Origin: Pempheris klunzingeri | Taxonomy: Eukaryota; Chordata; Actinopteri; Acropomatiformes; Pempheridae | NCBI RefSeq assembly: GCF_042242105.1 | Contig: NW_027254956.1 | Location: 310,001-374,000, forward strand | DNA length: 64,000 nt | Direction: 5' to 3' | Shown here: positions 6,001-55,824 of the stretch, piece after piece | Position numbering within the stretch: position 1 is the first letter of the stretch | Layout: each line of letters opens with the position of its first letter | The notes under the pieces: generated by a model | What the model was told of the DNA's origin: nothing | Database searches by the model: none | The model's input: only the letters and a program-made list of their open reading frames with translations | Translations under genes and position numbers: made by a program

Positions 6001-9000
6001 AAAGGCATCCGGGCAGGTAAAATTCTGGTCTATCAGATCAAACGTCTGTAAGCAGCAGAAGAGATGCAATGTTAAAATTAGATCTAGTGCTCAGAAGGAG
6101 CAAGCTGAAATTCTTAAAACTATCTTAGCAACAGCATATGTCTTAAGTGGTCTTGAAATTGCATCCAATGTAAAATGCAAATTACCTTTTGTTTCAGACA
6201 AATGACATCTTCCCTCTCCTCACCTCATCAGATATGTGGTGTTTGTCCTCCAGCTGCAGCCTGGCCCAGGATGTGAGACGCTCGATCACACACTCTGCCT
6301 CTGCAGAGGACAGCCTCTTCAGGACAGTCATGCATTCCTCTGTCTGAAATCAGAATGAAAGACTTCCTATCAGTATTTAATGTATACATAAGAGAAATAA
6401 AACTTGAATTTGGTGATTTCATATTTATGTTTTGGGATGAGCATACCTTGCCCTTGCCAGTCAGCTCGACGAGATGCATGTAATTTATCTGCGAGGTTGG
6501 AAGTTTGTACGCCTGAGCTAATGTCAGGGAGTCTTCTAAAGACATTGGGAGGTCTTGCTTCAGGATGTATCTAATCAGTGTCTGGGGAAGACATACAATA
6601 TATGACAGAAAGTTTATGGGCAGGCACAGCAGGACTCATATGTAACATAATTAATCAAATCCAAAATACCATAATTTGAGTGCTGTTAGAGAGGTTGAAG
6701 TTGCGGATTCCATAACCCCTGAGAAGTTTCCTGATCTCCATCAGACGGTAGCTCTCCTTTAAAAGCTCTTGTCTGGGGAAAAGAGCAGTTAGAAAATTAT
6801 AGGAACTGCTAACATTGTCAAATTTTATAGTATATTAAAAAAAAAAAAAAAAAATCAGGGTGAGGAAAATGTAAACATACTTTGGTCCATCCATCTCTAG
6901 GTACTGCTGAACCAGTTTTTCTACCACATTACTCCAGGGCACTACAGCTTTCTGCATGATCTCCAGCACAGCATCAACCATCAGCTGGCAGGAAATACAA
7001 TAATGTGAGATTTTACAAATCCTTGTACAAACTTTATTGTTTTTCTATACATCTATCTTATTGACTATCTTCTCTGCTACCGTTGTGGCTGATGTTCACT
7101 AAGATAGTTCTGCTTACTCAAATATTTGTGCTCATAAACCTTCAGCATGTTGTGAACTATGTGTAAATGTAACCTCACATCAGTATCCGTCATGCAGCCT
7201 AGCACAGCCACTGCTTTGGCTTCCCATTCTGTGAAAAGTGTTGTGGTCTGGGAACTGCAGCGCTCCAGGAGATCCTAGTGAAGATCAAAATGAGATAACA
7301 CTTGCATGATGCATTTGGAAAATTAAATGTTTATTCCCCGTGGGCATGGCAATGGTGGGGTTTTACCTTGATATACTGTAGAAGCAGCTCATCAAATGGA
7401 ATCTCGTGCTCTTCAGCATAAGGCAAGATACTCCTCTCCACTGTAGCTGCAATCAGCTCTGGAGCCGGCACTTTGTCCAGCATGTAGGATGCAACGCTCC
7501 GTATGTTTCCCTTTCAAATTCACAAGGAAGATAAGTTACTGATATAGGAACATAGGTTTTGATCTATCTATCTATCTATCTATCAAAAACCGCATGGCTA
7601 TCTTACAATTTAATGAACTACACTACAATGCATTTAAAAGTAAAGTATTTTTTCACTTTGAAAATAAAAATAGCAATTTTTCATATTAGTTTCTGAAAGT
7701 TTTAGATTCCATAAAATACTTGTTTCCTGCTGCAGATACAGGAAGCTTGTTTGAAGCTCAGCGGTAAATAGAATATGTCACTTATACATACAAACCTTCT
7801 CAAAGACTGACAGCGAAAGTCTACAGTTGTATTTCTGGTGGAGGTCCAGGAGCTGACGGAGGTTGGACATCAGGGACCTGATGTTCTCCACCTCCTCTGC
7901 ACCATAATTATCATCCTTACAAGAAGATTCATATGCATTACATTACAAACTTGCACCCACAGGTAGATCATGACTGTGGAGGCACATAATGAAAAGAGAA
8001 AAATGTGGTTAACTTACAGATTTCATCCATGTCCACAGAGGGGGCAGGCCGAGCACCGCCATGTCCAGCCCATTCTGGGGCCAAGCACCCTGAGACATAC
8101 CATACGACATTTATCATCATTGGTTCAACGATTGTGACTGATACTTTTCATGTTTCAACATCAAGTTGAAAAAAGAATAAACAAACAATTTTAAAAGAAA
8201 TGAGCAGATGCACAATATTTATTCTACATTAGGGAACGATGCTCCGTGCTTTTCTCCACTGTCTAATATTGTGATTGCAATGTTTTTCTGAAATCATAAA
8301 AATTGCTCGGGACTTTAAATTAATAAATGCTTACCACCATTTTTTTTATCTCTGTTGCGTTGTACTGCATGATTGCAAAGCCTGGTTTTACTTAACTTAG
8401 GAGTTTCTGGTTGGTATTTTTTTCTCATTACCTTTTCTGTTAACTCCAGATTCCTTGCTCTCTGCTCCAGCCATCTCGCCAGGATTCTCTAAGGACACAT
8501 AAAGACAGAACTTTGACTACTGAAAACATAGCACACATACAAACATATTTTAGGCTTGATAGAGCATATCCTACCTGTCCTACTGGAAGCACTCTCCCCA
8601 CAAAAGGAACAAAAACTGTCCTAAACCAAGGACAGAGGTCCTGGGATGGCAGGTCCTCTGGGATGGCACTGAGCACTGCTTCAAGCTTGCTCTCATCAAA
8701 CTCTACTGCAATTTGTCCCTGTTACAAAACAGAGCAGTAGACAACATCACAACTGAGCCTGATCACCATGATATTTCACATAGAATTGTTTGTTTCATCA
8801 TTGTTAATGATCTGTGTTAAATGTGTTAAGTGCATTCCTACATTAGAACACAAGTTACTGAGATATGACAAATTCTGGTGGTTCTGGTGAGTGCATGAAG
8901 CTGATCTTTACCTCATATCTGAGCCACAGGAGTTGTGCACCCTTCAGATCTCCTTCTCTTAGGTGGGTCAGAAGGTCTCCTAAATTGTCAGTGCTGTTCA

Positions 9001-20610: not shown

Positions 20611-23494
20611 TCATTTACAGATAAGACTGGAATACAGCACATGAGCCACACCAGTGATGAGGTTGTGATTGGCAAACTCAAGAATAAGGAGAAGGATTGG
20701 GTACTCGCTGTGTCTCTTCTCCAGGGTGGACTCCTCACTTAAGCCCATCCAGTGAAGTAGCAGTGTTTGCATGGCTTCTGGGAATAGCTCTGTGACTAGT
20801 TCTTCAGCAGGTGGCAAGTCACTAATTCGCTCAATATGATGTACTTTGAAGCCCTCCACCTTCTGGCTGATGTTGCTGTTGGCTGCATGAAACTGCTGGC
20901 CAAGCCAACGTCCTATACAACTATGCAGGGAACTTGAATACACGCAGCCCCAGTCTTTGGCCTTCAGCAAAGCTAACACAGTTTCTGTCACTTTACTTTC
21001 TTCCAGAGTCCCATTCATATACCGATCAATGTTCTCCAAAAGCAGCAAGATAGTCTCAAGCTGTTCTGTGCAGCTTTGAGTCAGAGAGGAGAGTTTCTCA
21101 TCCAAGCTGTGCAACTTCTGTCTCACTGTGGATACGACAAGTTGGCTTTGCTCAGTTTGCAAACCCTGCTTGGGGAAAGAGCAATAATCGTGATCTGCTG
21201 ATGTATCACCTGTGTCACTGTCATTAACGCCCACCGATTTCCTGCCAACCTGGAAATGCTGGAGTTGTGACGTCCTCAATTCAGTATCATGGATGCTGCT
21301 GGATAGTGCAAAGTCAAGCTGTACACTGAGGCTGTAACTCATTTTCAGAGGACTGTCATTTATCTGCGATTTCCAAACATCCTACAAAGGAAAGTCAATA
21401 ATACAATAATATATCAAAAGATAGATACATTTGGATACACACACACACACATATATATATATATGTATACACTTTACTTTTACATTAGACTGAAAACATT
21501 TGGGTTTGGCTTCAAAAGATGAATATGAGACAAGAGATCAACATTTCAGCTTTTATTTCCAGGTATTTACTTCTGGATCTGATACACAACTTAGAAGTTA
21601 GCACCTTTTGTTTGAACCCACCCATTTTTCATGTGAGCAAAATTATTGGAACATGTGACTGACAGGTGTGTTTTGTTGCCCTGCTGTGTCCTATTACATT
21701 GATTATTCAAACAATAAATAGCGCTGAATGTCTACGTTCAGTTTCAGATTTGGGTTTTGCCTGTGCAGACTGCATTTATAGTTAGAGGCGTAACCAACAT
21801 GAAAACCAGACAGTTGTCTATGTGTGAAAAACAAGAAATCGTGAAGCTGAGAGAAGATGGAAAATCAATCAGAGCCATTGCACAAACATTGGCCATAGCC
21901 AGTACAACCATTTGGAATGTCCTGAAGAAGAAAGAAACCACTGGTGTACTAAGTAACAGACGTCGAACGGGTAGACCAAGGAAAACAGCAGCAGTTGATT
22001 ACAGAGACATTGTGAGAGCTGTAAAGAAAGACCCTAAAACAACTGTTGACATCAGCATCAACCTCCAGAGAGCAGGAGAGAAGGTGTCACAGTCTACTGT
22101 TCGCAGAAGACTTCAGGAACAAAAGTACAGAGGCCACACCAGAAGATGCAAACCACTCATTAGCAAGAAGAATAGGAAGGCCAGGCTGGAATTTGCCAAA
22201 AAGTCCAGAGACAAGCCTAAAAATTCTGGGACAAAGTTTTATGGACTGGTGAGACAAAGGTGAACCTTTACCAAAGTGATGGAAAGGCTAAAGTTTGGAG
22301 AAAGAGAGGATCTGCTCTGGATCCCAAACATACAAGCTCATCTGTGAAACACAGTGGAGGTAATGTCATGGCTTGGGCTTGCATGGCTTCTTCTGGGATG
22401 GGCTCATTCATCTTCATTGATGATGTAACACATGATGGCAGCAGCAAGATGAACTCAGAAGTCTACAGAAACATTTTGTCTGCCAATTTAAAGAAAGATG
22501 CAACTAAACTGATTGGGAGATCCTTCATGGTGCAGCAAGATAATGATTCAAAACACACTGCCAAAACAACAAAGGAATTCATCAGGGGTAAGAAGTGGAA
22601 GGTTTTAGACTGGCCAAGTCAGTCTCCAGACTTCAACCCTATAGAGCATACATTTTACCTGCTAAAGAGCAGACTGAAGGGAGAAACCCCCCAAAACAAA
22701 CCACAACTGAAAGAGGCTGCGGTGAAAGCCTGGAAAAGCATCACAAAAGCAGAATGCAAAAGTTTGGTGATGTCAATGGGTCACAGGCTTGATGCAGTTA
22801 TTTAAGGATTTGCAACTAAATATTAAGTCTTTTCATGTTAATGTATTTTAAGTCTATCTGTTCCAATACTTTTGCTCGCCTAAAAATTTGGTGTTCCGTT
22901 ACAAATAATGCTATCTTCTAAGTTGTGTATCAGATCCAGATGTAAATACCTGGAAATAAAAGCTGAAATGTTGATCTCTTGTCTCATATTCATCTTTTGA
23001 TGTCAAACCCAAATGTTTTCAGTCTACAGCAAAAATAAAGGAACTGGCCTCACTGTTCCAATACTTTTGGAGGGGAGTGTATAGTGAACAAACAAATTCT
23101 AAACAAATCCTGGTTTGTTAAACACTTTATTGTTAACCACATAATTCCATATGTGTACCTTCATAGTTTAGATATCTTCCATATGAATCTACAATATAGA
23201 AAATTATAAAAAATAAAGAAAAACCATTGAATGACAAAGTGTGTCCAAACTTTTGGCTGGCACCGTATATGTACATACACAAAATGTATACATCATTTAC
23301 ACACATGCACAATGTGAACTGTATCATACCTGGAAGTTCTCTAGTACAGCAAGCTGCTCTTGCTTACTGTACATTTCAAAGGCGACTCGAAACAGTCCTT
23401 GAACGCTGTAGAACCAGAGGCTGCTGTTTGCAGAAGGCACCTTCAACCCATGCAACCTGAATGCTGCAGCAGGAAGACAACATTGTCAAGTGTT

Positions 23495-27300: not shown

Positions 27301-29115
27301 TGCATTCATTCTCCAAAATACCACTGTGGTTTGAAGTCAAAGACACGGGTGTGTGTGTATAAATATTCACAAACGGTTGTGGTTTCTGTCCCTTTCCATC
27401 ATAAATTCTGACCTTCTCAGTCTTGGTGATACTTGAACCTGCAAGTAGAGCATAATTGAAGGTATGAATTGCTTTAAGGGGTAACCAAATAATGAAAAGA
27501 AACACTATTAAGTCAGACCACTTTTCTCACACCCACTTCAATGATCAAGGTTATTCATTTATGAAATTATGTAAATTTCAGTTGGCATTCTTCAACAGAA
27601 GACATGGAATTGAAAAAAACCTGTTGGATAAAGAGATAAAGAGAGGGTGTGTAATGCATTTTGGGCTGAGCCCTTAAACACTTTCATTCCACATGTCATT
27701 GTTCCTCCCCAACAGCCTGGCGCCACCTGCAACAAGAGAAGGCATGAATCTGACTCATCTCCGCAGCAGAGGAAGAAGACAAGGTCCAGTCCTGATCGTA
27801 ACTCTGACAGAAGCTCGGATATGGATATTGAATCAGGTAATTGTTCATCTTTGTCACTTTTCATCATGCATCTTAAATGTCAAGCTAATAGTCGAAAACT
27901 GCAACAATAATCTGTAAATGTCTGGATCTTAATGCAGATATCCACTGTTTTGTTCTTATAACTCGATACATAAAATACTTCTGTTTTTATTCATGGCTGA
28001 AATGCAGAGTAATTCAGTTATACTTGCATCAGATGTGTGTTTATTTCACTTTCGAATCTTTCTGTGACTTTATTCATGTTTTCCCCTCAGATCCAGGAAC
28101 ACCTTATCATACTGGCGCTGGTGACTTCCAGTTCCAACCTCCACTGCCCCCTGGCTCCCCTTGCTTCAGCTCACCACCCCCTTTGCCACGGGGCACTCCT
28201 CCTGCGACACCCACTCCCCCACCTCTCCCTAAAGGTACACCTCCTTCCACACCCACTAATGGCTCTCCAGCTCTGAGAGGACGTAACTGGGTAGTAGCTG
28301 ATGAGACTGTAGAGGGAACAGAGGATGAACTGACACTGGAGGAGCTGGAGGAGCAACAGAGGCTGATTTGGGCAGCTCTAGAAAATGCTGACACTGCCAC
28401 TAATAGTGACTCTGACACACCTGCAATGGGAACACCTGTCCCCAGTTCACCAAGTGTGTCCACACCTGTGCATGTAGACACAGAAACGGAAGAGGCTGAA
28501 GAGGAGATGGACACAACAAGACCTGCAAAAACTAGCAGTGAAAATCAAAGGGAACCAGGGGTTCAAGATATTTATTCTCAGAGCCCTGGACCAATCAAAG
28601 TTGAGGATGACAGTCCTCAGAGCCCTGAACCAGTCAAAGTCGAGGATGACAGTCCTCAGAGCCCTGGACCAGTCAAAGTCCAAGGTGACAGTCCTCAGAG
28701 CCCTGGACCAGTCAAAGTCCAAGGTGACAGTCTTCAGAGCCCTGGACCAGTTAAAGTTGAGGATGACAGTCCTCAGAGCCCTGGACCAGTCAAAGTCCAA
28801 GATGACAACCCACACAGTCCTGGTCCAGTCAGATCCCATGATGACAACCCGCAGAGCCCTGATCCACTCAAATACCAAGAAGACAACCCACAGAGCCCTA
28901 ATCCAGATTTTTCTAAAGGGGGGGCTGGAGATTGTGCTTCTCCTAAGGATGTTGTGAAGATTACAGCGGTTCCTCATCGGAGCAACTTTGCGGCTGGCAT
29001 CGTTCCATTTGAAGATACACCAGAGTTCACTGAAGTTGCTGAAGCCACGGGGACATACCTCAAGATCAGAGACTTGCTTAAAAGTTCCCCTCGAAGTCTG
29101 GCGAAGAAAAAATAA
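24352..29115 (+). CDS. zcchc8: ZCCHC8, zinc-knuckle subunit of the NEXT complex
   Basis: Scaffold of the nuclear exosome targeting complex with MTR4 and RBM7, directing decay of promoter upstream and other short nuclear RNAs. Fourteen coding exons give 775 aa (human 707): 24352-24526, 24695-24737, 24825-24899, 25043-25145, 25228-25305, 25415-25518, 25748-25813, 25944-26004, 26091-26227, 26350-26492, 26599-26708, 27043-27129, 27716-27836, 28091-29115. Features in order: start MAEVDFGDRELF, coiled coil, KMNILTRPS, GSVLYFTTFSLDKLGQPL, a CCHC knuckle CFNCGASTHQLRDC, the PSP domain (LPPLIYRMRQLGYPPGWLKE), a Pro-rich PPLPRGTPP region, EELEEQQRLIWAALE, and the C-terminal MTR4-activating region (AGIVPFEDTPEF ... 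LKIRDLLKSSPR). Intron 1 is AT-AC U12 type, intron 6 may be minor-class, and intron 9 has a GC donor. The last exon holds a 13-residue repeat array absent from the human protein as I recall it. A poly(A) signal is at 29823-29828. Confidence 0.96.
24527..24694 (+). other. U12-type AT-AC intron (ZCCHC8 intron 1)
   Basis: The donor ATATCCTTTT follows GAGGAGA. A perfect branch site TTCCTTAAC (24675-24683) lies 11 nt before the terminal AC. Splicing A to AT gives EENKALRRKMNILTRPS, aligning with human ENQELKRKLNILTRPS. The nearby AG acceptor would run into a stop within four codons. Confidence 0.93.
25519..25747 (+). other. Possible second U12-type intron (ZCCHC8 intron 6)
   Basis: The donor GTATCTTT differs from the U12 consensus GTATCCTT by one base and is a poor U2 donor. 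TTCCTGAAT lies 10 nt before the AG, resembling the U12 branch site with one mismatch. The acceptor lacks a polypyrimidine tract. The join PTYHQVF matches human PKYHQVF, so the boundaries are firm; the spliceosome class is inferred. Confidence 0.6.
28574..28910 (+). repeat. 39-bp coding tandem repeat in ZCCHC8
   Basis: About eight 39-bp units encode 13-residue copies of the form SPQSPGPVKVEDD. The early copies are nearly identical; the later ones drift (NPHSPGPVRSHDD, NPQSPDPLKYQED). Each copy carries one or two Ser-Pro sites, and three carry a complete psi-K-x-E-x-x-S-P motif. Confidence 0.95.
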
Positions 29116-37028: not shown

Positions 37029-40000
37029 ATGAGCACAGCCAAGCCCAGTGGGATCAAAGTACCCACCAAGATAACTAAGCCAGCTGGGACAGCAGCCCCT
37101 AAAACTAACCCCAGTGCAGGTAAGAATCCTCCCATATGCAGGCTCTTCAAGTTTGAGTGGACATATGACAGTGCAGTGTCATCCTCTGTTGTTGTTTCTG
37201 TGTAATTATTGTGTACATAATGTTTCTGTGTATATAGGTTTTCCTCTGTATTATGTTTATTTAATTTTCTATTTCTTTAACTGTGTGTTTTTGTCTGTCC
37301 CCTTGAGCTGCTGTAACAGCAAACTTTCCCCACTGAGGGATCAATAAACAATATCTATCTATCTATCTATCTATCTAAAGAACCATTCAGTCACAACTGC
37401 TGTGAGAGTATAGTAAAGATTCTACTAAACAGTGATGTTGGGAACCTCTTGTTTTCTTTGTGTTGAGCTAAACATGTAACTGCTAAGAGAACAAGAAGTC
37501 GTGGAGAGAATAAACTTGCATAGTATAATCTGGATGTTAAATCACATGATATTACAATGTTTTGCACAGTATTTGTGGCATTTGTCTTCCTCACAACAGT
37601 CATTAACCGAAGGGATTTAAAAAAAAAAAAAAACAACAAAGAAAAACCTGTTCCCTCCTTATTTTTCGGCAGGAGCTAAAGTTGCTGCAGACAAATCAGC
37701 TGCAAGTGCCGGTGCAGATGGCCAGAGTTCTGGGGAGAGCTTCCAGACTGGAGAGCGAGTATGGGTGAATGGAAATAAGCCAGGCTACATACAATTTTTG
37801 GGAGAGACACAGTTTGCCCCAGGACAGTGGGCAGGGATTGTTCTTGATGAGCCAATTGGGAAGAATGACGGGTCGGTGGCAGGGGTGCGCTACTTCCAGT
37901 GTGAAGCCTTGCGAGGAATATTTACCCGCCCATCCAAGTTGTCTCGCACCGAAGGGGAGGCTAATGGTACTCAGACAGCACCACCCTCCCGCGCTGCATC
38001 ACCCACTCCTTCAGTTGGTAGCGTTGCCTCGCATACACCTGCCACCAAGTCGGCATTACCCTCAACTACCACAGCAGCAAAGAAGGCCTCATCCGCTACA
38101 CCAGCTACAGCGGCTACACCGGCTACACCATCTTCCAACCTTGCACGAACAAACAGTGAATCTGTCTCCAACCTCTCAGAGACTGGATCAGTCAAGAAGG
38201 GGGAAAGGGAACTGAAGATGGGTGACCGTGTATTGGTAAAGTGTTTTATATTATATTATATAATAGAACAAAAGTCTCCTGGGTATTTCGCAAAGTAATA
38301 GAACTCTAAAATTATACCTTTGTGTCCTAACATTAGTATTAGCATGAACAGTGCTTGTTCAGAGTCACATGGCCCTCCTCTTCTTCAACATAGTAATCTC
38401 AGAGAAATAAACATGGTCTCTATTTCATGTCACCAAACCTCCATCTCTGTCAGTTGAGGTGCTGGAACTAATGTGGTGGAGTGCAGTTACCATCTGTGTG
38501 CGGTCCTGGTGGATTTTATCTTGCTGAGCACCTTCTTTCCTCCCTACGCCAGCCACATGCTACTTTCAACGGACTCCAAAAACACTTATGTGTTTATGAA
38601 TATTAGAAGAACATAAAAGCACATGTGCTGTACAATGGTGACAAACAGCCATTACAAATGTTTTATGTATGTAGTGTGGAAATGTGTTGCAGATCAATAG
38701 CAACTATCGTACGGACATGATCTTGTACACATAAATTGCTGCAGACAGTACGCACACACCCGCAGAAGAGATCATGCGTGGTTCACTGCATGGAGCATGC
38801 TCAAACTCTTATAGATTATTCCCCATTTTCTCCCCTTCCTCAGCCAGGAAGCTGCGCAGCACGTTAAGTTAAGAAACATTCACACCACTTCCATATTTAA
38901 TATCATGTAAACCTTGCAGATCTGCATGAAAATAATTGAAAGGAAAAACATAGGTTTGTAGATGTTGACAGTTTGACCTCTTTCTGTTCAAAGATGGTAC
39001 ACGCTTGTTTCTGTTGCTTTGATGGAATTATCTCATTCAAGTGTTTATTACCAGGCAAAGCTGATTACTCTGTATGCCTCTTTTATCTGTTTAGGAGATT
39101 AAATGTTGGCTAATGCGTAGTGTTTTCTTCTCAGGTTGGTGGTACAAAGGCAGGAGTTGTACGTTTCCTTGGAGAAACAGATTTTGCCAAAGGCGAGTGG
39201 TGTGGTGTGGAATTGGATGAGCCCTTAGGAAAGAATGACGGGGCTGTGGCAGGCACAAGGTACAAATGCAACTGGATCTGTAATAAGTAAAGTTTTAATT
39301 CTTTTTAACCACATGTGTGCCACTACCTCCAATATCATGATTGTACTCAATTATCTGTCCCCAGATATTTTCAGTGCCAACCCAAGTATGGCTTATTTGC
39401 TCCAGTGCACAAAGTCACACGCATTGGCTTCCCTTCCACCACCCCAGCTAAAGCAAAAACAACAGTTCGGAAGGTAGTGGCCACACCATCAGGGCTAAAG
39501 CGAAGCCCTAGTGCTTCCTCTATCAGTACCATGAGCTCTGTGGCTTCGTCTGTCAGCGCCAAGCCCAGCCGTACAGGCCTGGTGAGATATGGACACACAC
39601 AGTTTCAACTGTGTTAAAAAATGGTACTCATCCATTTTTTTTAATGCTTACTCATCAGCCTGACCATGCTTGCATTTGGTCTCTCTCCATAGCTAACAGA
39701 GACATCGTCGCGGTATAGTCGTAAGATTTCAGGCACCACAGCCCTGCAGGAGGCGCTGAAGGAGAAGCAGCAGCATATTGAGCAGCTGATGGCTGAAAGA
39801 GACATGGAGAGAGCTGAGGTCGCCAAGGCCACTGGCCATGTTGGAGAGATGGAGCAAGAAATTAGCCTGCTCAGGGATGATCAGGAGCAGGTCAGTATAT
39901 CCAGTAGTTTAGTAATAACAATCTGCATGAACCTCCTATTCATCTTAAATTACGCTTAGAGTCTCTCTTAATTATCTTGTCATCTGTATTGATTTTTTTT

Positions 40001-43000
40001 TTGTTCAATGTCAACCTTTCTCTCAAAGATGGAGGCTAAGATGGACCAGTTACGTGCCTTGGTCGAAGCTGCAGACAAAGACAAAGTCGAGCTGTTGAAT
40101 CAGCTGGAGGAGGAGCGTAGGTAAGGATCCCCAGAGGTGGGACCAGTCAAAGACACCTTTTTAATTTAATGGGTTCAGTTTATTGAGGCAGTTTATTATT
40201 GGGCTTAACCTTGCTCTTGATCATTGCAATTAAAGTTATTAGTTACTCAGTTATGTAGACAACAACCACAACAAAAAAAAAGCTCCAGTAAGATTGTTTT
40301 TTTGTTGTTGTTTTGAACAGGAAGGTGGAGGACCTTCAGTTCCGAGTAGAGGAAGCTTGCATTACCAAAGGAGATCTGGAGGTAAATGCACCACGCAGAT
40401 CCACACTATTGCGACTAACATATTTTATTGAAGGTATGTTGGAAAAACAAAACATCAATCAGTGTAATAATATTCATATATCAGACTGCAAATTAGACAT
40501 TTCTATTTTTATTAAATAGTGAATTGACTAGTATATTTAACTCATTTGTCCTAATGATTTGAAATCAATATTTTGATATAAACTTAGAAGCAGTATGTGC
40601 TCCATTCACCCTGCATCCTGGTTCTATTTCAGGATTCCAGTTAACATTAACCTCTATCTATATCCATGACAAAGTCATTTACATTTTTTATTTACATCAG
40701 TGTCCTTGGGTGCAGGTCTAATGCAATTTAAGATTGCATGGGATTAACTGGTACATGTTACCCTTGTTACAGAGCTGCAGTTGAGTCCAGTCAATTGCAT
40801 TATCTCTAGTTTGTGTTAGCAGTAGGAACTACCCATTCTGCAGTCTCATGCATGGACAGTTTGATACTGGCTTCATCTTGCATTAAATGATGTGCTGTCA
40901 AATGCATCTAGTAGTGCAGGAAGGCTCTGGCTTTGATGACGAGGCCAGGCCATTCTCAAACCAGAAATAAATGCATACGCAGACCTGATATCCATGAGGT
41001 CACCAAGCATGTTTTTATTGTTGTTAGCATAATGAAAGCCCTGATGTAAAGAGATTGATTATATGTCTAAGAACCTCATTACCAGAATGCAATATTAATA
41101 ATGTTTGCCTACTATGGAGAAAGAAAACATTTTATTGTCGTCGTTGATTATCAAAGCTAGGGCAATTGTTAACGAAAGAACCTGCTCTCTACTTTTTCCT
41201 TCACATGATATCATGATATATTACTCATCATCTTTTTCTCAAGTGAGTCATGTTCTCATCCTAAGTTATGATAGGTAGAGTATTGGGGCCCAGTAGTATC
41301 TGTGTTCATATCTGATCAAAGGATTTGTTATTTATTTCACAGTGCTATACAGGGGACCATCTCAATTATCCTGAAGGCATCCGAACGCAAAATAGATGTT
41401 AGAATACAGGGTTAGAATACCCCTTTATCTTCTTTTTACACGTGTATACTAACAGTCTATTACTTACTCACAACTGTGGATATATTAAAAACTTGCATGC
41501 AGCTTGAAATACACCAACAAACACTTAAGAATAGGCCAAACTCAAAAATGCTTTGTTGACTTCAAGCTGTTGAAGGTGTGCTAATGTTGTGCTATAACCC
41601 TCAGTGCCTCCCTGTTCAGTGATGTGATGTTATTGCTTCTTCTTCCTTCTCGTCCTCGTCTTTCATGTTGGTCCAGTGCTCAGCATGGAACCACTGGAGA
41701 TGCTCCCTTGTCATTCCACTGCCCAGTCACAGACCTCAGTTTGTCCACGGGAACTAAAGGGGGATAACACTCTCAGCTAAAAAATTCAAATGTAATTTTT
41801 GTACCAAGTTAGTTATAGTTTATACCTACTCCACTGGCACTTTCGTGTTGCATACAGTGTCTAAGTAGACTTTTACATTCAAAGTACCCAGAAAATTTAC
41901 GCTGAACCCAAAAGAGCATTTGCTATAGTTTCATAATCACATCCTTCTTGCCCCATTCATTACCTTTTGGATGTGATATAAAAGTAAGCTAGACATGAGG
42001 GTTAATTTTGTCAGATTGTGTCCATGGAAAACCTAATGTTGTATGACCTGAAAATAGTCATTGGGCCCAGCATTTAAAATTAGTGCTATTCCCCTCAAAA
42101 TGAAACTTTGGGTAACATATAAGACGTGAAGCACAAAATTCTGCCAGGAAATGCGTCCTGAAACCCTTATTCATAGCACACAATGCCAAGAAGTCAAATG
42201 GGAATTCTTTCTGTTTCTTGAGACATGCTTCTGCGTTACTGATTGATTTCTGTTAAGTTGGTCACGAATCTTGCACATGGTGGTCTGATAAATGGTGGTT
42301 TCTTATATAATACTTAATTTATGCAGTGTGGACAATGACCTTATAACCAAAGAGAGAAAGCAGTGTGGATATCAATAATGCTACAGCCTTTATTACTTTA
42401 CTAGTATAGTAAGTAAGTCATCATGTGGATTCAGCTGAAAATACAAAAAAGCTGAAAAATGTCTTTATAGTGACTTTCTATTGTTAAATCAATATAACAA
42501 TTCTACAACACTGATATAATCTGTATGATAAAATGCACTTATGTTACACAATGTAGCATGAGGTAAAGGAGTCAGGAAACATCCATCACTGCTTTCTCTC
42601 CATGATGTGGTGAAGTCTTTTTTACTTAATTTATTTGCTGGCTTGACACACATTATCAAAAATATGTATGTACCATAACAATCAATGTGCTTTGTCCACC
42701 AGGTGTCAATTTTGCATGGTTACTTCTAAACTGCCTCCATCAACATACTCATCCTGCACATCCATAACAGATGCCCCCCACCTCTTTTGCTGCTTGTCTT
42801 GTATTTCCCACCATTCTTTCACAAAAATCCCTGTGTGCAGCAATTTATGGCACAGCCTGAATGTTCTGCATGGGGTGTCATCCCTTTTCCACTCATCCAC
42901 CAATCCTCCAAATTCTCATACACAAACACACACTTACTGTACACATACTCCATCACCACTATCTTTGTCCAAACCCCTCCATCCTCTCTCTTGTCTCCCT

Positions 43001-46000
43001 CCCTCTCTGTCTGCGTTGGGCTGGCATGTGATGGTGGCACTGGTGTGTTCTCTTCCTCTCCCCCTTGTTTACTAACAGACGCAGACCAGACTGGAGCATG
43101 CCCACATTAAGGAGCTTGAACAGAGCCTGCTCTTTGAAAAGACCAAAGCTGAGAAACTCCAAAGAGAGTTAGAAGACACTAGGGTAATGAATTCTGCTCT
43201 GCAGTGTACTGCGTTGGAAAAGAGGGCCTGGGCCAGGAATAATGGCCAAAAACTTTGCGAGGTGTTGAGCAGTAAATGACGCTTTGCTTTGTATGGGTTT
43301 ATGGTGAATGAACCTGAACCCCACAAATGTATTTCAAACCACAAAAAATTATACTGATACATATATTGATTTTATTTAAATGCACAAATTAGTCCATCCT
43401 GCCATAAGTTAGACTAATAGATGCAGCATCAAACCTTTAGGCATTAGTCACAGATTTTATTTAGAAAAGTATATATTTCTGTTCTAAATGTAAAAAAATA
43501 ACCAATTGCGTCTTTCTGCTGTCTTAAGTGACGGCTCTTTTACTTGTACTATTTTCCAAAGCGCTCCTCAACCTGAACTCACTCTTGCTTTACTGGTATC
43601 ACTGCTTAACCAGACAGACAAACTTATCCCTTGTCCCAGCTAATCATTTTCTTGGTTATCCTATGTTCTACCTCCCAGTCCTTCCCAGCATCCATTTGTC
43701 CTGCTTATTTGGTGTCCCTGCATTCTGTTAGACTAAAATCTGCTCCACCTCCCAGGCTATGCATCCTTATGTTCCCCTAGAATATTATAGACATAATGGG
43801 TAGCAGGAAAAATGCAGTTCTATAGTTTCATGAGAAAAGGATGATTATTTTGTCCAAATGTTGATTTTGATTAAATGATTCCCCTGCCTTAATCAAGCTA
43901 TTAAGTTGAACCAGTGAAAAGAAAAACACATGTGAAAACATTAAATAACAGATTTGGAACATAGCTGTTCTAACATAAATCATGAGATCAATAGTAGCAT
44001 TAATTCACTGATGAAAAGTTTTAGTGAAATAGATGGTGGGAAATGTTTTACACACTGCTATAGCTCCATACATGCTTTCAGTGTTCACATCCATTGTTTG
44101 GACCACACCCTTTATAGCCACAAGAGGTCAGTGTAACACCTTGTTTTGGGGATCAATGTTTTATGCCCTCCTCATCAAACAAGCAAATTGACCATTTTCT
44201 TTGTTAGAAAATATTGAGTTTTACTATTACCAAGCGATTTTATCTGTAATTACAGTTAATAATCATTCTTTACTGTTATTGGACAAATGAAAACGGATAT
44301 AACTACGTTTTTAACACACATTTTTGTGCACAGTGGTTCATTGCGTCAGATTGGGACACTTTTTTGAATGTAAGCATTTGTGCTTTTAAAGGTTGCTACT
44401 GTGTCGGAAAGATCCCGTATTATGGAGCTTGAGAGGGACCTTTCTCTGCGAAAAAGAGAGGTAGCTGACCTGCAGCTGCGTCTTGGAACCCAGCAGGGCA
44501 CTGAGGACTCAAACTCTACTCTTTCCCCCCTTCTGGAAGAGATAAACTCTCTGAGAGACCAGTTGGCTTCCCAAGAAGCGAATCAGCAAGAAGAGCTGGC
44601 AAGATACAAGGAGAAGGTAGAAGCTCAAGATAAGACCCACACTGAGGCAGTTGCCCAGCTTCAGGCTACATCAGTAAGGCTCTCTGGTGACAATGAGCAG
44701 TTGCAGATGCGCTTAAGCCAGGCTGAGAAGGAGAATGCTGACGTTATTGAACTGTGGCGTTCCAAGTTGGAGTCTGCCATTACCTCTCATCAGCAAGCCA
44801 TGGAGGAGCTGAAGGTGTCCTTCAGCAAAGGTGCAGGTGCGCAGGCAGAAGAACTTATAGAAACCAAAAGTGCACTAGAGAGTCTGAAGTTGGAGCACAA
44901 TTTGGCTCTAGAGGAGGCAGGAGCCAAACAAAAAGCTGAAGCTGCTGCTTGGACTCAGGAGACACAGTCACTGAAGGCACAGCTGTTGTCTTTGACTGAG
45001 GACAAGGAGCAACTGGAGGAGGCATTACGGTCCAGTGTTGAAAAAGCAGAGGAGCAGCACCTTGTGGAGATGGAGGATATTCTCGGAAAGCTTCATGCTG
45101 CGGAACTTAGGGTAAAGGAGCTCGAGGAGAAAGAAGCAATGTGGACACATCAGGCCCAAGACATGGACAGAGAAACCAAAGAGCAGATGGCAGAAATGGT
45201 GGCTCTGCGAAGCCAAGTAGCACAAAGTAACCAGGCGCTTGTGACCCTGAAGAGTCAATTAGAGATGGTTCAGAGTCGCGGAAACAACCAGGATGCCAAG
45301 GTGGGTTCTTGTTCACCTCCTCAGCGTGTCTTCTGTTAGGTCAGTAAGGCATTTTGTGACAATGATTGTCAGCCATTGTTTTGTTAGCGATTTGTTTTGA
45401 TGTGCATGTTTCTTCGCTGATTGCCTTTGTCCATTTTGGTGACGTGCTATTAGGTGAGTGAATTGAGCTCTCAATTGGAGAGCCGACAGCAGGAAGTCCT
45501 CTCTTCACAGCAGAGTCTGGCCATTGTACAGAAGGAGAAGGACAACCTGGAACAGGAGTTTGACAGCCTGGTAAGACTTATGGCTTAATTATGGGTGTGG
45601 GTACGGTATTTCTTTTGGTCACTGGTCTCTTTCATGTTCAGTGCCCTTTGATGAACAAACTATTTAATTCCATCACTGTTTCTAAACTACCTCAGTCATG
45701 TCTGTTGCATTTCTCTACTGCTTTTTCTTGTTAGTTACTTGCTGACATGTCAGATACCGATATATCGATAATGAGCTGGCATCAGTCAGTATATCTGCTT
45801 GTTCAATGTGTTATTTGGTGTTGTGACAGAACATAACTGAAATGCTGTACAAACCACAACAATCTTGAAAAACGCTCCTGTCCTGCAAATTTGTCTATTG
45901 CAGAAAAATCATGTACGAAAATGTGACGCAAAAAAGTATTTTTCCCAACAGAAGCAAAAGCTGGCTGAAAGCACACAGGAGCAGACAAAATCAGCAAAAA

Positions 46001-49000
46001 CTATGCAAGGTAAATGATAGAACCAATTGGTCCTTGTTCACTTAGTCAAATGTTTTTCCTCCCATCTTTTTTGCAAATCGAAAAATTTTACATTTTTATA
46101 TTTACAGAAACACTCGAGAAGCTCGGTAAGAAGGAAGAGCAGTGCTCATCCCTGTCCACAGAATCAGAATCTCTAAGAAGTCAACTTGCCGGTGAGAACA
46201 TTTGAATTGCATTCTTTAATGTAAAATGTTTTGTAAGAAGTTTGAATTGTTGCTATTGGAGACTTGAAACTCATCTTGTCTTTACTTAGGGCTGGAGAGG
46301 AAGCTGAAGGCCGCAGATGAAAAGCTTGAGCAGCTTTCAAAGGACAAAAGCAAACTGGAAAATGATATTTCAGAAATGATGAAGGCATCCGGTGATAGTT
46401 CAGTACAGCTGACCAAAATGAATGAAGACCTCATACAGAAAGAAAGGTACCACATTTTATTCCATGTTGTGGTCACTTTATGCTTTAGTTATCTAACCTG
46501 ACACTGAACATCATGAACGCCCCTTTTTTCTTGTCACCACTCAGGAGGCTTGAGGAGTTACAGAGTCAGCTGGCAGAGGAGAAGGAGAAGGTGGCCCACT
46601 TGAATGAACAAGTCCAGCAGGAACAGTGCCACAAAGAGCAGGAGCTGAAAAAGACCAGAGATGCACTTGAGTCTCAAATAAGTGGCCTTCAGGAGAAGAT
46701 TACTAACTTGGTTAGCATTATGAGGCAGCCAAAAAATTTGTTTGTGCTTGAGAATTGTATGTCACTTACTTCAAGACTTAAAAAATTGTTTTATAGACAT
46801 TAAAATTGTAATACTTCAGTTACCATGCTTTGGAAAATCTTGCACTTTGGCTGTTTCGAAACCAGTAAATAAATGCTTTAATGTGGTTAGTTATTTCGTT
46901 TCTCATTCCCTGTTTTCTAGGAGAAGAATGTTAAACAAGGTGAGAGCCTGGTTGAAGAGCTGAAGGCCTCCAAAGAGAAATCCCTCTCTCAGGCCTCAGA
47001 ACTCCATGTCAAGGAACTTGAGGGGCTGCAGAGTCAAATTGACAAGCTGACGCAGGAACTCACTTCCTCAAAGGACAAAACCCAGGAACTGGAGAAGTTG
47101 GTATCTGAGCTGCAGCCATACAAGGAACAGGCTCAGGTAAAAACAAACCCTCAAAGAAACACATTAATTAAGTCAAAATGTTTTGAATTTTCTGTATCAT
47201 ATTTAAATGTGTAAGATTCTTTTGTACTTCTTAAACATTAGTGATTAATGAACAGTATAAACAGCATTATCGCTCCTAATTACTGTTCTGCAAATTATTA
47301 GATAAGTTGGTCATTTCCCCCGATATTAAGGCTAATAACCTCTTGTGTCATATTCATCTTAGCTGTATATTGGATTGTGCTATGGGCTATATGCTTGCAG
47401 GGGTACACCTGACAAAATGCCTTTAATGTATTTTAAGACAATTATTTGATTATTGGGTAAGACATTGATTGTAGTAAAAATTAAACTAACATTAAGAACA
47501 ACTACTTACATATTTTACATTTAGCTATTACTTTAAGTTTCTTTCAAATTACATTACATGATTATCACTTTTGCTATGTACCCCTGTTAGCATTCTTTAT
47601 TACCTTGATATTTCATTTAAGTAGAACATTTTCACTTTCTAACAACTTGGTTTCGTGAGTATTTCTACACCATTGGAGGCATTCATTAACAGCACTGGCT
47701 TATGCTGCATACTTTTCCCATTCATCTTACAATACATATTTCAAGGCATATTAAAAGTGCTTTTGCAATGTGGATCCCATTATATTTGAATTAATTGCCA
47801 TACAAGATGCTGCAAGGTAGTCATTCACTATAATGGTCAGATTTGTTGCATCAATGCAATTAATACATTAATTTAAAGTAAGGGCTCAAGTGAAAATGTT
47901 CCACCTTTTTATATTTTTGAAAATCATTGTGGTGTAAGCTGTGGTGTGATCTTTTGCCATTTTTGAGCTTTTTTTTCCCGCAGCTTAACCTATCAGCTGC
48001 ATATTACTTATGTCCATATTTGCTTGGTTTATTTTTGGACTCATCTTACTTTTCCCTGTGTATATATATTCCCCTCCTTTTTTCTATCAACTTTATTTTC
48101 CCAGTGTCTTTCTGCTGAGCTTGACTCCTACAAGCATGATGTTGAACATTTGTCCAAAAAACTGGAAAAGCAAAGTCTAGATCTGGAAAGTATGTGTAAG
48201 GAAAGTGAGGATGTTAAAGCTGAGAAAGGTAAACTGGAGAAACGGCTTTCAGATATGCAGACCAAGCTCTCTGCCCTTGAGGTTAGCAACCAGGAGCTTT
48301 CAGTCCAGAGTGATGAACTGCTAACAACCAGAGATAAGCTTTCAAAAAATCAAGAGGAATTACTAGCCAACAACAAACGCTCAGATGAAGAAAGGATTAC
48401 ATTGAACAAAGAGTTGGTGAAGCTGAAAGATCTTCTTCAGAAAGTACAGATTGAAAACAAAAAACAGAAGCATGCTGAAAGTGAACACCAGGCCCAAATT
48501 GAAGAGCTTCAAAGACAAAATGCAGAGAAGAATGACTTGCTCCTTAAGCATCAACAGGACAGCCAGCAAATTGAGGCTAAAAAGAAGCAACTACTCGAGG
48601 ATTATGAAAATGTCTGCAAGGAGAGGAACCAGCTTGAAGACAACCTCAATGAAAGCAGGTCAAAGCTCACATGTGAGAAGGACAATCTAATTTTAGAGAG
48701 AGATACTGCTAGAAATGCCAAAAAATCTCTTGATGCTAAGAATTCTGAGTTGCAAGCAAAACTTAAATCTTTGAACTTAGAAAAAGAAGATCTTACAATG
48801 AAGAATACCCAGCTGCAGGCCCTCACAGAAACACTGACTAAAGAGAAGGAGGAGATGTCCACTGAAATCAGTGCTGCTGTGTTGGATAAAAAGAGCCTTG
48901 AGACAGTGAAGGAGGAGCTCCAGATTAAGCTCAGTGTTACAAAGAAAGACTTGGAGAGCTCCGTCCGTGAATGTGAAGAACTTAAAGCCTCAAAAATGAG

Positions 49001-52000
49001 TCTGGCCCAAATGCTGGAAGAGTTCAAGACAAGCAGTCAGGTGACTGATTCTGAGAGGCTCCACCTTTGCCAGGAGAAAGAAGACTTAATTGCGGTTCAA
49101 AGAAAAATCTGTAATGAGAAGGAAGAGCTCCTCAGAGAGATGGAAGAATTAAAGGAGAAGCTTCAGATCGTAACAGAACAACTGTCTCAGTCCAATGAGA
49201 AACTTAAAGAAGCATTATCGTCTTTTGAGCAAGAGAGGCAAGCATTTCGCCTTCAGAATTCAGAAATTGAGATGGCTCTACATGGTATACGAAAAGAAAA
49301 GATGAGCCTGGATTCAGCACTAGAACAGCAGAAAATGGATTATGAGTGTCTGGCAGTGGAGAAGGGAGAGGTAGAAGAGAAGCTCACAAAAGCTATATCT
49401 GAAAAAAGTGCTCTTTCTCTTGAGCGTGATAAGCTAGCTACTGATATCCGAACAGCAAAGGACCAATTGGATAGTCACTCCAGAGAAAATGCTGTCAATA
49501 TCCAAGATAAGTCTCATCTAACAACGCTACTGGAGGAAACCAAATGCCAGAAAGACAAGGTTGAAGCAGAGATGACTTCTTTGAAACAAGAAAAGGCTGA
49601 CCTGCAAAATGAACTGCAGAAACATGAATGTGATATTGAAGTTCTTAAAAAGGACAAAACCGAACTTGTCAAAGAGCATAGTAAACTAAAAATTGATTTT
49701 GAAAAGACTAATTTAGAATTGGTTCAACAGGTTGAAAGCCTTAAAAACGATTGCCAGCATCTGCAATCGTTGCAGACTGAAGCTGACAAAAAAGTGCAGT
49801 CGTTGCAGAAAGAGAACCAGGGGCTGGTTCAGGAGATCCAGGAGTTAAAATGTCAGACTACATCAATGTCAGAGGCCAAGCACCTTCTTGAGAACCAGCT
49901 GGAGGATGTATCTCGTGAACGGACTAAAGTGATAGTTGACAAGGATGGCCTTTCCAAACAAACTGAGGAGCTGCAGAAGACGTTATCCAAAATTACACAA
50001 GAAAATAAAGAGATGTCTTCTGACCTTAAGAATGCTGATGAGCAAAAGAAGTCTTTTATGGTGGATATTCAGACTTTGAAAATGAAATTAAAGCAGCAAG
50101 AGCAAGAAACCAGTGAGTTGACACGAGGTAAAGAGCAGCTATTATCTAAGCTTGAGGAGATGGGCAAACAGATGACCTTCCTGACCACAGAGAAGGAAAA
50201 CCTTTTAGCTGGACAGTGTAAATTGGAGCAGGACATTTCTTCTCTTCACACAAGCCAAGAACAGTCAGTCACGGAACAGTCAAGACTCCTTGGAGAGTTA
50301 GACAAGTTGCATGCAAGCCAGAAACAACTAGAGGCTGATGTCAATGGCCTACAAGCTGATAAAGAACTTTTGGAAAAGCAATATAAAAATGCTGTTGCGG
50401 AGGCATCAGCCTCTGTTGTTTCGAAAGAAGAGATTTCCTCAAGCATCTCAAATCTCAACGCACAGAAGGATGCTCTGCAGGTGGAGAGAGATGAAGCCAC
50501 CCAGCAAATCAGGAAGCTGGAGTCCCAACTAAAACTTGCCATTTCTAAGCAGCTTGAGGTATTCCTCCTCCAGTAGTAATCACTGACACACATACCTTAG
50601 AGTGGCTGGGTCTATGTCACCTACTTACTGCATGCTTGCTGGTTTGTCTGCCTTTCCCCTCCTTTTATTTTCGTGCCTAACTTTCATCTTCCATCTACTA
50701 ACTGCTGTTAGTTACCCTTAACTCCCAGCCTGTTCCTGTGGGCTTATAACGTGATATAACATAAGGCGAAATTCTTCTGGGTTACATGATTATGTAGGTG
50801 TAAGGTGATCTTTATCACACTCACCATCTGATGGTGTTTCATATTTCATTTGAATTTATAATTGATCTTAATAGACTCAACTCAAAAAGGTCGATGTGAG
50901 GATTTCTCAGCACACTGTCATCACACTCACACTCATCACAAATATTAATGCAATGGGAAAGATTGTAGCCTCAATAATCTGCTTTAGTGTCATTCAGGTT
51001 TTGGGCTTGCAAAATCTCTCTGAGCAGACTGTTACAATTACACTTACTGATCATATACATATAGACAGAAATGATTAAATATCTCGATACAAGGCAGCTC
51101 TTGGTGGTAACCAGTGGTTTCTACCATCATTCAGGATTTGAGGAAGTCCTACACAGAATGCCTGTAAAGAAATACCACTATTTTTTTTTTTCTTATGTGA
51201 TTCATTGCTTAAGTTAATGGGTTGCCAGTATCCGTTCTGAGGCCACAGGTTGTAGAGTATTTAAAGTATTTCCTAATTGTTTTTGTTGATTAGTGTAATA
51301 TTTATGTTGTTAATTCTCAACCAGAATGTACTTAGAAATGTAAATTTGCAATGAACTGATATTTGGATTTGGAGATTTGGAATTGATGCTAAATCAGTAA
51401 TTAGACAAACATTAAACATTAAGCATGCGATTAATTAAATTCTTTTAAAACAAGGTAATTGCTTGTAGTCAAACGATGCATTATAAATAGCTTAATCAAA
51501 TGACCTTCACAATACGTATTCTGGTTGGTTGAGGTCATTAGGTATTGATGTCAACCAACCATTTGCTTCTCTTGATATGAAACCGTTCTTATCAAATATC
51601 CTGCTCATGCACCATTTAGGCTACAGAGGCCTCTGGTAAGACTGCTGAGGCTCTTGAACAACTGGCAAAAGAGAAGGCCAGTTTGATGCAGGAGAAGAAC
51701 GAAGCCCAATCTTTGCTTGAAGTGCTCCGAAACTCTAAGCAGGAGATGGAGACCAAGGTAAGAGATGGAAAGATGGGTCTTTGCAGAAAAAGTGCTAATA
51801 TAAACTTTCAGAGGTGAAGCAACTCTTTCCATCAAGCAATATATGTGAAAGAAAAGGAAATGAGTAAAATCTTGGGTATATGTGTTTTGTAGTTGTAGCT
51901 TATAATATATTTATTGTTTTAGCTAAAAACTTTGAAGAAAGAGAATTCCAAGTACCAAGAAGACCTGAATGTATCTAAAGAGCAGCTTTGCACAGAAACT

Positions 52001-55000
52001 CAGAGGACTAAGAGTTTGTGCCATGAAATGTGAGTATGTCTTTAATTTTGGAAAAATATAAATATATCAAATTTAAATTTGAATAATATGATAATATGAT
52101 GTATTTAATGGGTTACAGTAAATCAAGAGACATGGCAGGAAGTGTTCCTACAAACCAATATGATTTCTGCACGAGTTGTCAGAATTTCTTGGATGATTTT
52201 AATATTTGTGTTTTTTCAGTGAGGAGCTTAAAGAAGCAGCTTCTGTGAAGACGGAGTCCCTGCAGACGATGCAAGATGAAAACAACAAGCTGACTCTGGA
52301 GCTCGAAAACAGTCACAAAGGCCAGAGTGATCTTGTGAAGGTGCAACACATAATCATAATCTTTATTGTATTATTTTTATTGAATTCTTAAATCTCATAA
52401 AACTACGGCCATCAGAACATTTTGTCTTTCAGCTTTTGATGAGCAGACCATGACTGGGACATTTTTTTCTCTTCCCTCTAGTTTAAGGATGAGCACTCAA
52501 AACTCAAAAAACAGTTGAAAGAGTTGAAGCAAAGGTATGAAGACATGATCATTTTATGAATCAGTCCATTTCTCAGATCTCTACAAATTCACCAGTATTT
52601 TGAAGCCTGTTGACTAAATGAACACAAATGCTTTCACTTGCTAATATGCTGTGCATTTTATTATGAAGCAAATGGTATATCATGCTGTTCTTTTTCTGCA
52701 AAGCCTGCCAAATAATGCCTTCAGGTAACTCACATTTTAATGTAATTTGATATTGGTCATCATCCTGTAATAGTGCAAACATTAACCATTACACCAAAAA
52801 ATATATTAACATGCAAACCCGTTCCACCTGATTAGCAGTTTGATAGTGTTTTTACACTACTGGTGGTGTTTTTTGTTTGTTTTTATTAGTTTGTTTATGT
52901 CAGCCATTGTGCTCTCCTTCCCTTACCTTATTTCCACACTGAATGTGATGACTGCACAGAGTATCAAATATTTTGATTGAAAGCAATGCTAGAGGAAAAA
53001 ATGGCTCTTAATTTTCTGCATGTCTCCTTGAGTTTCTGCAATGTGTGTTGTGGCCCTGAAGTCTGAGGTAATTCCAAAGATAGAAATCTGCTGAGAAACA
53101 ATTTGGTTAATTGGTTCCAGTTTTTCTCTGCCTGGAGTGATTGTGTACTGTACCTCAAATATTTAGTTGCTATTGTGTATTTGATAGTGAGAGCACCTTG
53201 ATGGAGCAGTTTGACAAGGAGAAGGCCGCCCTCCAACAGTCCATCCATAAAAACAGTGCCTTAATTTCAGAAAAGGACCAGCAGGTGGAAAACTTAAGGA
53301 GCGAGGTGAGAATCTGATGCATGACGGTACTCTCTTATCGTCAGTAGATATGGCAGCTTATTGACAGAACAGCACAAAATGAATTCAAGTGAATCATCTG
53401 TTGTGACAGATTCTGAGCAATAAAAAGATAAGAGCCTTTTATAACAGTCTTTAACAGTGAACCTTGCAGGAACATTGCTGAGTCTAATACGATGTTACTT
53501 CCTATTTGAGGCTGCATGCAAAGATTCTACCACTTTATGAACCTGAAAGTACAAGTTTAAAAGATTGTGAGCAAGAAGGCAGTGACACACATTTTCATCC
53601 TCTTAAAACCTGTTTTGAACTCAAACACACTGAGGAGTATGTACTCTCAGATCTTGACTTGCAGACTGAATAAATACTCAAATTGAATTTGTGCTTGTGA
53701 TGCTGTTAGATTGTCACTGAGTGACAAAGTGATAAAATTATGTTTTAGAGCAAATAGTAATATTTTGGAACACAACATTCCTCCAATATTGAAAAGCATT
53801 TGTTGCCTTCTTCACAGCTGGCTGTATTACGTGGGGAAAGTGCCTCAGTTAAGACACTCCAGGATACAATTCAGGCCTTGGAGCAGGACAAAGCTAATCT
53901 ACAGGAACGTGTTCAGAGACTAGAGAAGGCCCTGGCCGCAGGATCTGACACCATCAACCAGTCCTCAGGTAAGAATGAGCTTAACACATGAACACAGCCA
54001 ATATTTTTGGTTGCACTTTAGGTCAGTTTTCTGTGAGTTTTAACGAAAACAAGATTACAAAGTTTGCTCCTACATGTCATTTAACCTTTTACCTGACGTT
54101 TCCAGGTGATGCAGTTGTGGACCAACTAAGGGAGGATAAGGAGACTGCAGAAAGTCAGGTGTGTATAACCTTCTCCTCATCCTGAATAATATCATAATCA
54201 TAGGCCTGGATAGGTTGAGGGATTTTGCCATTCATACATTCAGTGTAAAGATGCTTCCCTACCTTGGCTCACAGAATATTCTGGTCTGACAACAACTTGG
54301 TCTAATTTACATTCTGGTCATTACTCGTTTGGGGCTGTTGTACGGGAACCGTCTGGCTGAATGCTGCGTGAAATGCGTGCTGCTTACTCAGACATTTACT
54401 AACAAATACTACTTCTGATGTAGCAGTAGACTCTGCATTTTACTGTTTACTGATGACGCATGTAGCTGTTACAGTATAATGTTTTACAGAGGTGAGATGG
54501 ATCTAAATTGATTTTACCTTTGAATGGAAGCATATTGAGCTTCTCGCATCATTTCAGTTCATACAGCTGTATAGAGCTTTTCACCCACAGTGGTGGGATG
54601 ATGGTGCGTGTCCTCAGTCTCAGAACCTTCTTACTTCTCACCTCCAGCCTCTGTTTATTATAAAATGTTATACTGTATTATCTGTGTCAGTGATGACTTG
54701 AGTGTTTTGTCTGGCAGTAGGTGGGTCCTAATTTGAGTCTTTTTTTTTTTTTTTTTTTCTATCTTCTCCCTCTCCTTCTCTTTCTTAAATCCCAACTCCT
54801 CTGCTCTGCCCTGTCTCTGATGTTGGCAATGCTACACCACCATCAGGCAGCGGTTTGTTAATGTTTTTCATCAGCTTCACCTTTGCATGTTTGTCTGTCA
54901 CTGTCAGTGTTTTTTCCAGTGGATCACATTGAAGTTGATGTCCAAACTACAAACTGTCCTCTTAAGACGAATGAAGCCTATTTTCTCAATACCTCTGTCT

Positions 55001-55824
55001 TTAGGGGACATCAGATCTACTAAGTAGTGCTTTTACTTAGGAAGACACTCAGTCAGTATTTTACCTAGTGACTCATTCCAAGCTTAGATTTTTCTTTGGA
55101 GGACAACTCACAGTGGCGATTTGGCATTGTAGTCACAATTGGGTTACTTATGTAGCGGATATGGTAAGGTATAGTCACTATTATCTATCTATAGTCCTTG
55201 TCATAGTATTGAGGCAAATTTTTGCACATAATACAATGAATAAAGTCCACAGGTAGACCCTATATCAATGTTTAAAATTTTGTGCAAGAAAATGTGTAGG
55301 ATAATAGGTGATCATTTGCTGGCAGCAGCACTGATGCCACTGTTGCATCTCCTTTTAAAGATTGAGTTCCTGAATTCAGTCATCGTTGACCTCCAGAGGA
55401 AGAATGAGGAACTCAAGGACAAATTGGAGAAAATGGCTGCTGCTGCTCTCAATGGGAATAATCCAAGTGAGCTGGATAACTATGATAGGTAAGTCCTATT
55501 CATATCTGACCTTCTCAGACTTCCTCTAAAATAATGCCAGCTGTGTATCGCTGGACAGTTAGTTACATACGGACCTGCTTTCTTTTTCTCTGCAGTCATG
55601 ACAAAGAACCTGTGAAGAAGAAGCCTCCCCCAAGGCTGTTCTGTGACATCTGTGACTGCTTTGACCTCCACGATACTGAGGACTGCCCCACACAAATGCA
55701 GATGCCCGACTCCCCTCCACACACCACCTACCATGGCAGTAAGGGCGAAGAACGGCCCTACTGCGACATCTGTGAGGTCTTTGGCCACTGGACCGAATCC
55801 TGTAATGACGACCAGACCTTTTAA
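37029..55824 (+). CDS. clip1: CLIP1 (CLIP-170), microtubule plus-end tracking protein
   Basis: Tracks growing microtubule ends with EB1 and links them to dynactin, IQGAP1 and membranes. Twenty-five coding exons sum to 6711 nt (2236 aa plus stop). The first is 37029-37119; 37673-38235 holds CAP-Gly 1 (GKNDGSVAG); 39135-39259 and 39365-39581 hold CAP-Gly 2 (GKNDGAVAG) and the Ser-rich [16 protein letters not shown] segment. A coiled coil runs from 39693 to 55488. It includes a 35-aa cassette (43079-43183), 44392-45300 and the very large 48105-50558. The terminal exon 55596-55824 has two zinc knuckles ([31 protein letters not shown]) and ends DDQTF. Without the 2454-nt exon the protein is 1418 aa, close to human 1438. 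The remaining exons are 39693-39890, 40029-40120, 40321-40381, 45454-45570, 45952-46009, 46108-46191, 46290-46446, 46545-46710, 46921-47136, 51620-51757, 51923-52029, 52220-52340, 52482-52534, 53188-53305, 53818-53968, 54106-54158 and 55361-55488. Confidence 0.96.
37285..37376. repeat. Retroelement 3' tail with (ATCT)n in CLIP1 intron 1
   Basis: GCTGCTGTAACAGCAAACTT, then CCCCACTGAGGGATCAATAAA, ends in six ATCT units. This 'ccccactgagggatcaataaa' plus tetranucleotide tail is typical of 3' ends of fish non-LTR retroelements. The family is not determined. Confidence 0.6.
40382..43078 (+). other. Long CLIP1 intron before the 35-aa cassette exon
   Basis: 2.7 kb with no supported coding sequence or clear repeat. 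Its last 350 bp are strongly C/T-rich. In mammals an 11-aa alternative exon lies beside the 35-aa one; I searched by eye for a 33-nt equivalent and did not find one. Confidence 0.5.
43079..43183 (+). other. clip1: CLIP1 35-aa cassette exon
   Basis: This 105-nt phase-0 exon encodes [20 protein letters not shown] and the rest of a segment matching the alternatively spliced 35-residue insert of mammalian CLIP-170/restin. Large flanking introns (2.7 and 1.2 kb) suit regulated inclusion. Confidence 0.85.
48105..50558 (+). other. clip1: Giant 2454-nt coiled-coil exon of CLIP1
   Basis: One uninterrupted exon, with acceptor TTTTCCCAG at 48104 and donor GAG/GTATTC at 50559, encodes 818 residues of Glu/Lys/Leu/Gln-rich heptad sequence. 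Examples are [20 protein letters not shown] near the start and [20 protein letters not shown] near the end. Both boundaries are phase 0, so it can be skipped without changing frame. Confidence 0.88.
50559..51619 (+). other. CLIP1 intron after the giant exon
   Basis: AT-rich, 1.06 kb. Nothing beyond the splice sites is supported. Confidence 0.6.
54159..55360 (+). other. CLIP1 intron before the penultimate coding exon
   Basis: 1.2 kb, with a long T-run followed by a C/T-rich stretch near 54740-54830. No supported exon inside. Confidence 0.55.

Follow-up and report, generated by a model that had tools for sequence, protein, structure and literature searches.

The window, meaning the whole stretch of 64,000 nucleotides that was analysed, lies on contig C27 (412 kb) of the Pempheris klunzingeri genome, which was searched as 646 Mb in 439 contigs. 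A coding region at 37029..55824 on the forward strand contained 25 coding exons and encoded two CAP-Gly domains, a rod, and a C-terminal zinc-knuckle region, the same arrangement of two CAP-Gly domains, rod and zinc-knuckle tail as in ordinary CLIP-170/CLIP1. The CAP_GLY domain matches were located near the N terminus at 37750-37941 and 39132-39263 (C27:347750-347941 and 349132-349263), while the zinc-knuckle C terminus at 55594-55821 showed 74% identity to the C terminus of human CLIP1. By this sequence evidence, the gene is identified as CLIP1 (clip1a) of a ray-finned fish. The coding model was anchored on the human CLIP1 sequence, and splice sites were picked to hold the frame.

Around CLIP1, the window contained KNTC1 exons on the minus strand (232-801 and 6231-6635, with Pfam Rod_C and KNTC1 ARM matches), a SMAP domain which together with its open frame was read as RSRC2, and an open frame at 27892-29112 which was read as ZCCHC8 and produced no Pfam match. 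In mammals, KNTC1, RSRC2, and ZCCHC8 are neighbours of CLIP1. Remains of a Tc1/mariner-type transposase were found at 21718-22802 on the forward strand, as two overlapping open frames with HTH_Tnp_Tc3_2 and DDE_3 Pfam matches, and the window produced no match on Rfam.

Human CLIP1 aligned along the gene, most clearly in exons 9, 13, and 18, in those encoding the CAP-Gly domains, and at the zinc-knuckle/C terminus. Exon 13 corresponded to human residues 894-945 (62%) and exon 18 to residues 1112-1147 (44%, E 0.02). The best gap-free match of exon 15 was to residues 1001-1072, a weak match (24%, E 0.006) with other placements nearly equal; the position of exon 17 was assigned from exon order and size. 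Exons 14, 15, and 17 encode 56, 72, and 46 amino acids (174 in all), while the human protein has 166 residues from the end of the exon 13 match to the start of the exon 18 match, and since these three exons already fill that interval, the standard human CLIP1, a form that we take to be without the segment described below, has no room for 818 further residues. The human rod also aligned to that segment with strong E-values, which were taken as coiled-coil background.

Exon 16 of the model, hereafter the giant exon, occupies 48105..50558 on the forward strand and measures 2454 nt (3 x 818), encoding an 818-residue coiled coil with phase 0 at both ends. Its borders read tttcccag/TGT and GAG/gtattc, with AG before and GT after. 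It follows exon 15 (46921..47136, ending in phase 0) and intron 15 (47137..48104, 968 nt), and precedes intron 16 (50559..51619, 1061 nt, donor GAG/GTATTC) and exon 17 (51620..51757, starting in phase 0), all on the forward strand. No stop occurs in the reading frame used, while 40 and 94 stops occur in the other two forward frames; the surrounding open frame spans 47967-50576, so that its limits nearly coincide with those of the exon, and its first ATG does not come before codon 30. By gene model and splice sites, 48105-50558 is a genuine giant exon of the fish CLIP1 gene.

Because both flanking exons join the giant exon in phase 0, its skipping is frame-neutral, and the frame is kept in a product of 2236 amino acids with the exon and 1418 without it. 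Coordinates, splice sites, frames, and both products of the 25-exon model were re-derived and agreed with the original prediction, which had described a 2454-nt exon, a multiple of three with phase 0 on both sides, giving 2236 or 1418 residues. Symmetric 0-0 exons made up 7 of the 25 in the model, and symmetry alone is therefore nothing unusual. The length stands out: the next longest exon of the same model has 909 nt, and 2454 nt is above the criterion of >1 kb for giant coding cassette exons. The prediction had also put the added coiled coil at roughly 120 nm from about 0.15 nm per residue; the arithmetic agrees, and inclusion of the exon would nearly double the length of the CLIP1 rod. Its proposal of a skippable CLIP1 exon held as regards coding, an intact frame in either form, and a long coiled coil, but not as regards novelty relative to mammals. 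That the exon is actually skipped in fish RNA is proposed from the frame and by analogy.

Across its 818 residues, the peptide encoded by the giant exon lacked both proline and tryptophan. Its hydrophobic residues followed a sharp period of 3.5 residues, and heptad occupancy was on average 12 SD above that of 200 shuffles. A simple register model with parameters chosen by the author placed three phase shifts within the exon, and two to three across five penalties. A single-sequence AlphaFold2 model was nearly all helix (seven helices, mean pLDDT 68, pTM 0.21); the model supports a predicted helix and no particular shape. The register broke at residue 1035 when the exon was included and at residues 1053-1054 when it was left out, and since there is one break near proline 1047 in either form, the register favours neither. 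When the peptide was compared with itself at lags of 21 and 256 residues, identity exceeded all 500 heptad-block shuffles, and the faint three-heptad repeat makes growth by internal duplication probable.

Aligned to the rod of its own CLIP1, the giant exon scored 420. Reversal of the rod lowered the score to 375, and 60 heptad-block shuffles averaged 333 (maximum 376), none of them reaching 420. Derivation from the CLIP1 rod is not claimed, since one coiled coil readily aligns to another and such scores are suggestive at most. Relatives of the 818-residue segment were sought in IMG/VR (4 pattern matches, 0 confirmed), GTDB genomes (26 pattern matches, 0 confirmed), and PDB sequences (no relative), collections without vertebrate genomes, so that these negatives say little; Pfam gave three matches, all below the cut-offs.

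The giant exon occurred twice in the genome, on C27 and on C7 (29 Mb), with the next match at E 0.02 among 55 of 194 candidates scored. Comparison of the window with 30 kb of C7 gave six alignment blocks longer than 400 bases that were 96.5-98.4% identical, and from this identity the C7 copy looks like the other haplotype and not a gene duplicate. The splice sites of the giant exon were identical in the two copies. Over 11649 aligned bases in all 24 introns, 146 substitutions and 32 indels were counted, and at these intron rates 6.7 indels and 30.8 substitutions would be expected in the giant exon, where 0 indels (P 0.0012) and 18 substitutions (P 0.009) were observed. The 18 changes comprised 6 silent and 12 replacement changes, a proportion that by itself is compatible with neutrality (P 0.13). 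It did not differ significantly from that in the remaining exons, of which 23 out of 24 were counted and gave 10 silent and 9 replacement changes (Fisher P 0.32). Exon 2 was left out of this count because its copies differ by 18 bases; this length difference lies between 37673-38235 of the window and C7:5401911-5402491.

The donor of the giant exon, that of intron 16, scored lowest of the 24 in the gene under an approximate matrix, with five other donors at most 0.7 bits away, and its acceptor was mid-range among 24. The weakest-scoring donor fits optional use of the exon. GARGAR occurred at 6.9 per kb in the giant exon and 0.4 in introns; the figure was 6.8 for the remaining exons of CLIP1, and 7.6 for synonymous recodings that followed the codon usage of the remaining CLIP1. 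The observed density was reached by 449 of 500 recodings for GARGAR, 318 of 500 for GAAGAA, and 322 of 500 for the m6A-type motif DRACH; thus neither GAAGAA nor GARGAR is denser in the giant exon than in the remaining CLIP1 coding sequence or the recodings. GAAGAAGA was absent from the giant exon.

A CAP-Gly domain search of the genome produced 27 matches. One CAP-Gly gene, on C14, we take to be CLIP2. A second CLIP1 gene was found on C19, with 51-95% identity by exon over exons 2 to 9 and 83% in the C-terminal exon; two CLIP1 genes would accord with a teleost. On tblastn, counterparts were found there for part of exon 9 and for exons 18 and 21-25, and weak ones for exons 10, 11, and 17 (E 3, 7.5, and 0.09, respectively; exon 17 at 15363 of the joined C19 stretch), while exons 12-15, 19, and 20 had no tblastn counterpart in the stretch examined. 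Exon 9 of this gene is shorter than in clip1a. The giant exon gave no tblastn match better than E 0.5 in the C19 gene, and positions 9000 to 31000 of the joined stretch held no open frame longer than 146 codons, which rules out an intact giant exon there; since other rod exons were missed as well, a diverged remnant may be present.

PMC10901741 (Nature 2024) describes, for CLIP1 of human and Clip1 of mouse, a giant cassette exon that codes for protein; according to this paper the giant form is spermatid-specific, is expressed in spermiogenesis and is repressed by SAFB proteins, and giant protein-coding cassette exons in general are bound and repressed by SAFB proteins, contain >33% adenosine, and are enriched in purine-rich ESE motifs. 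The work reported there includes human, mouse, and fly cells, and the word "zebrafish" is absent from its main text. The original prediction knew of no such form among the standard mammalian isoforms, and the view that mammals lack one is contradicted by this report. The prediction itself had said that it would lose its novelty if the exon proved to be a normal part of mammalian CLIP1, and the finding is thus for the most part no longer new, provided that the two exons are orthologous. A literature search whose coverage excluded most subscription papers returned PMC10901741 as the one paper on a CLIP1 giant exon, and no description of such an exon in fish CLIP1. What is new here is that the giant exon is intact in a fish and that the second CLIP1 gene has no intact copy.

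The fish exon resembles the published description of the human and mouse exon in lying in the same gene, in being a giant coding exon with more than 33% adenosine, and in permitting optional in-frame inclusion. Adenosine made up 37.3% of the giant exon, over the 33% given in PMC10901741, and exceeded all 500 synonymous recodings, whose mean of 35.3% indicates that the amino acids account for most of the adenosine richness. The exon thus has the adenosine trait of the SAFB-type class as outlined there, and its purine motifs are not distinctive. Cassette exons of ANK3, ANK2, MAP2, MAP4, MAPT, NIN, MPRIP, and NASP in the same source likewise consist of a single very long coding exon and enlarge the protein in a particular tissue; the proteins with such exons are mostly cytoskeletal in that account, and the fish CLIP1 exon differs in being coiled coil throughout.

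The preferred reading, to which we assign a probability of roughly 0.7, is that the giant exon corresponds in fish to the giant cassette exon of mammalian CLIP1, that its use is optional, and that spermatids probably include it; its orthology and like regulation would follow by analogy with the mammalian case. Most cells would then skip the exon and produce the ordinary CLIP-170 of about 1418 residues. Where repression is lifted, as in mammalian spermatids, the exon would be spliced in to give the 2236-residue form, in which the microtubule-binding heads and the zinc-knuckle tail would be retained while the distance between them grew by up to about 120 nm. This longer rod would perhaps bridge a gap from microtubules to other structures of the manchette. 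An extension of this reading, conceivable though doubtful, is that the exon goes back to the ancestor of ray-finned fishes and mammals, and after the fish genome duplication was kept in clip1a and lost from clip1b, the long and short rods being divided between the paralogues, so that long-rod CLIP-170 in fish may be the product of a dedicated gene and not a rare splice form.

The exon might alternatively be constitutive, so that clip1a makes the 2236-residue form and the second CLIP1 gene the short form, the paralogues having split the mammalian splice forms between them. The lack in the C19 gene of a match better than E 0.5 and of an open frame above 146 codons, together with the mid-range acceptor, is what such a division would be consistent with, but the donor is the lowest of 24, the frame survives skipping, and cassette use is published for human and mouse in PMC10901741, and we consider constitutive use unlikely. 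Quite unlikely is an independent origin in fish, by which the exon would resemble the mammalian one in kind only: this analysis contains no sequence link between the two, and the repeats at lags 21 and 256 point to a growth by duplication that could recur, but the same gene acquiring a giant coding exon with >33% adenosine twice, going by the published description, would be a coincidence.

A separate or decaying coding unit within a CLIP1 intron (a retrogene, a nested gene, or a pseudo-exon), outside the CLIP1 mRNA, is highly improbable. Nothing specific speaks in its favour, and against it stand an open frame bounded at both ends by phase-matched splice sites, the lack of an ATG before codon 30, the lack of any copy apart from the C7 counterpart (next match E 0.02 among the 55 of 194 candidates scored), and the 0 indels between the C27 and C7 copies.

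Should the giant exon of the fish prove to be the same as the mammalian cassette exon, a CLIP-170 with a nearly doubled rod would have persisted over several hundred million years. Such long retention, if true, would speak for a real function rather than leaky splicing. The fish testis would in that case be an easy system in which to study rod length in spermiogenesis, and fish could show whether the control of giant exons by SAFB predates mammals.
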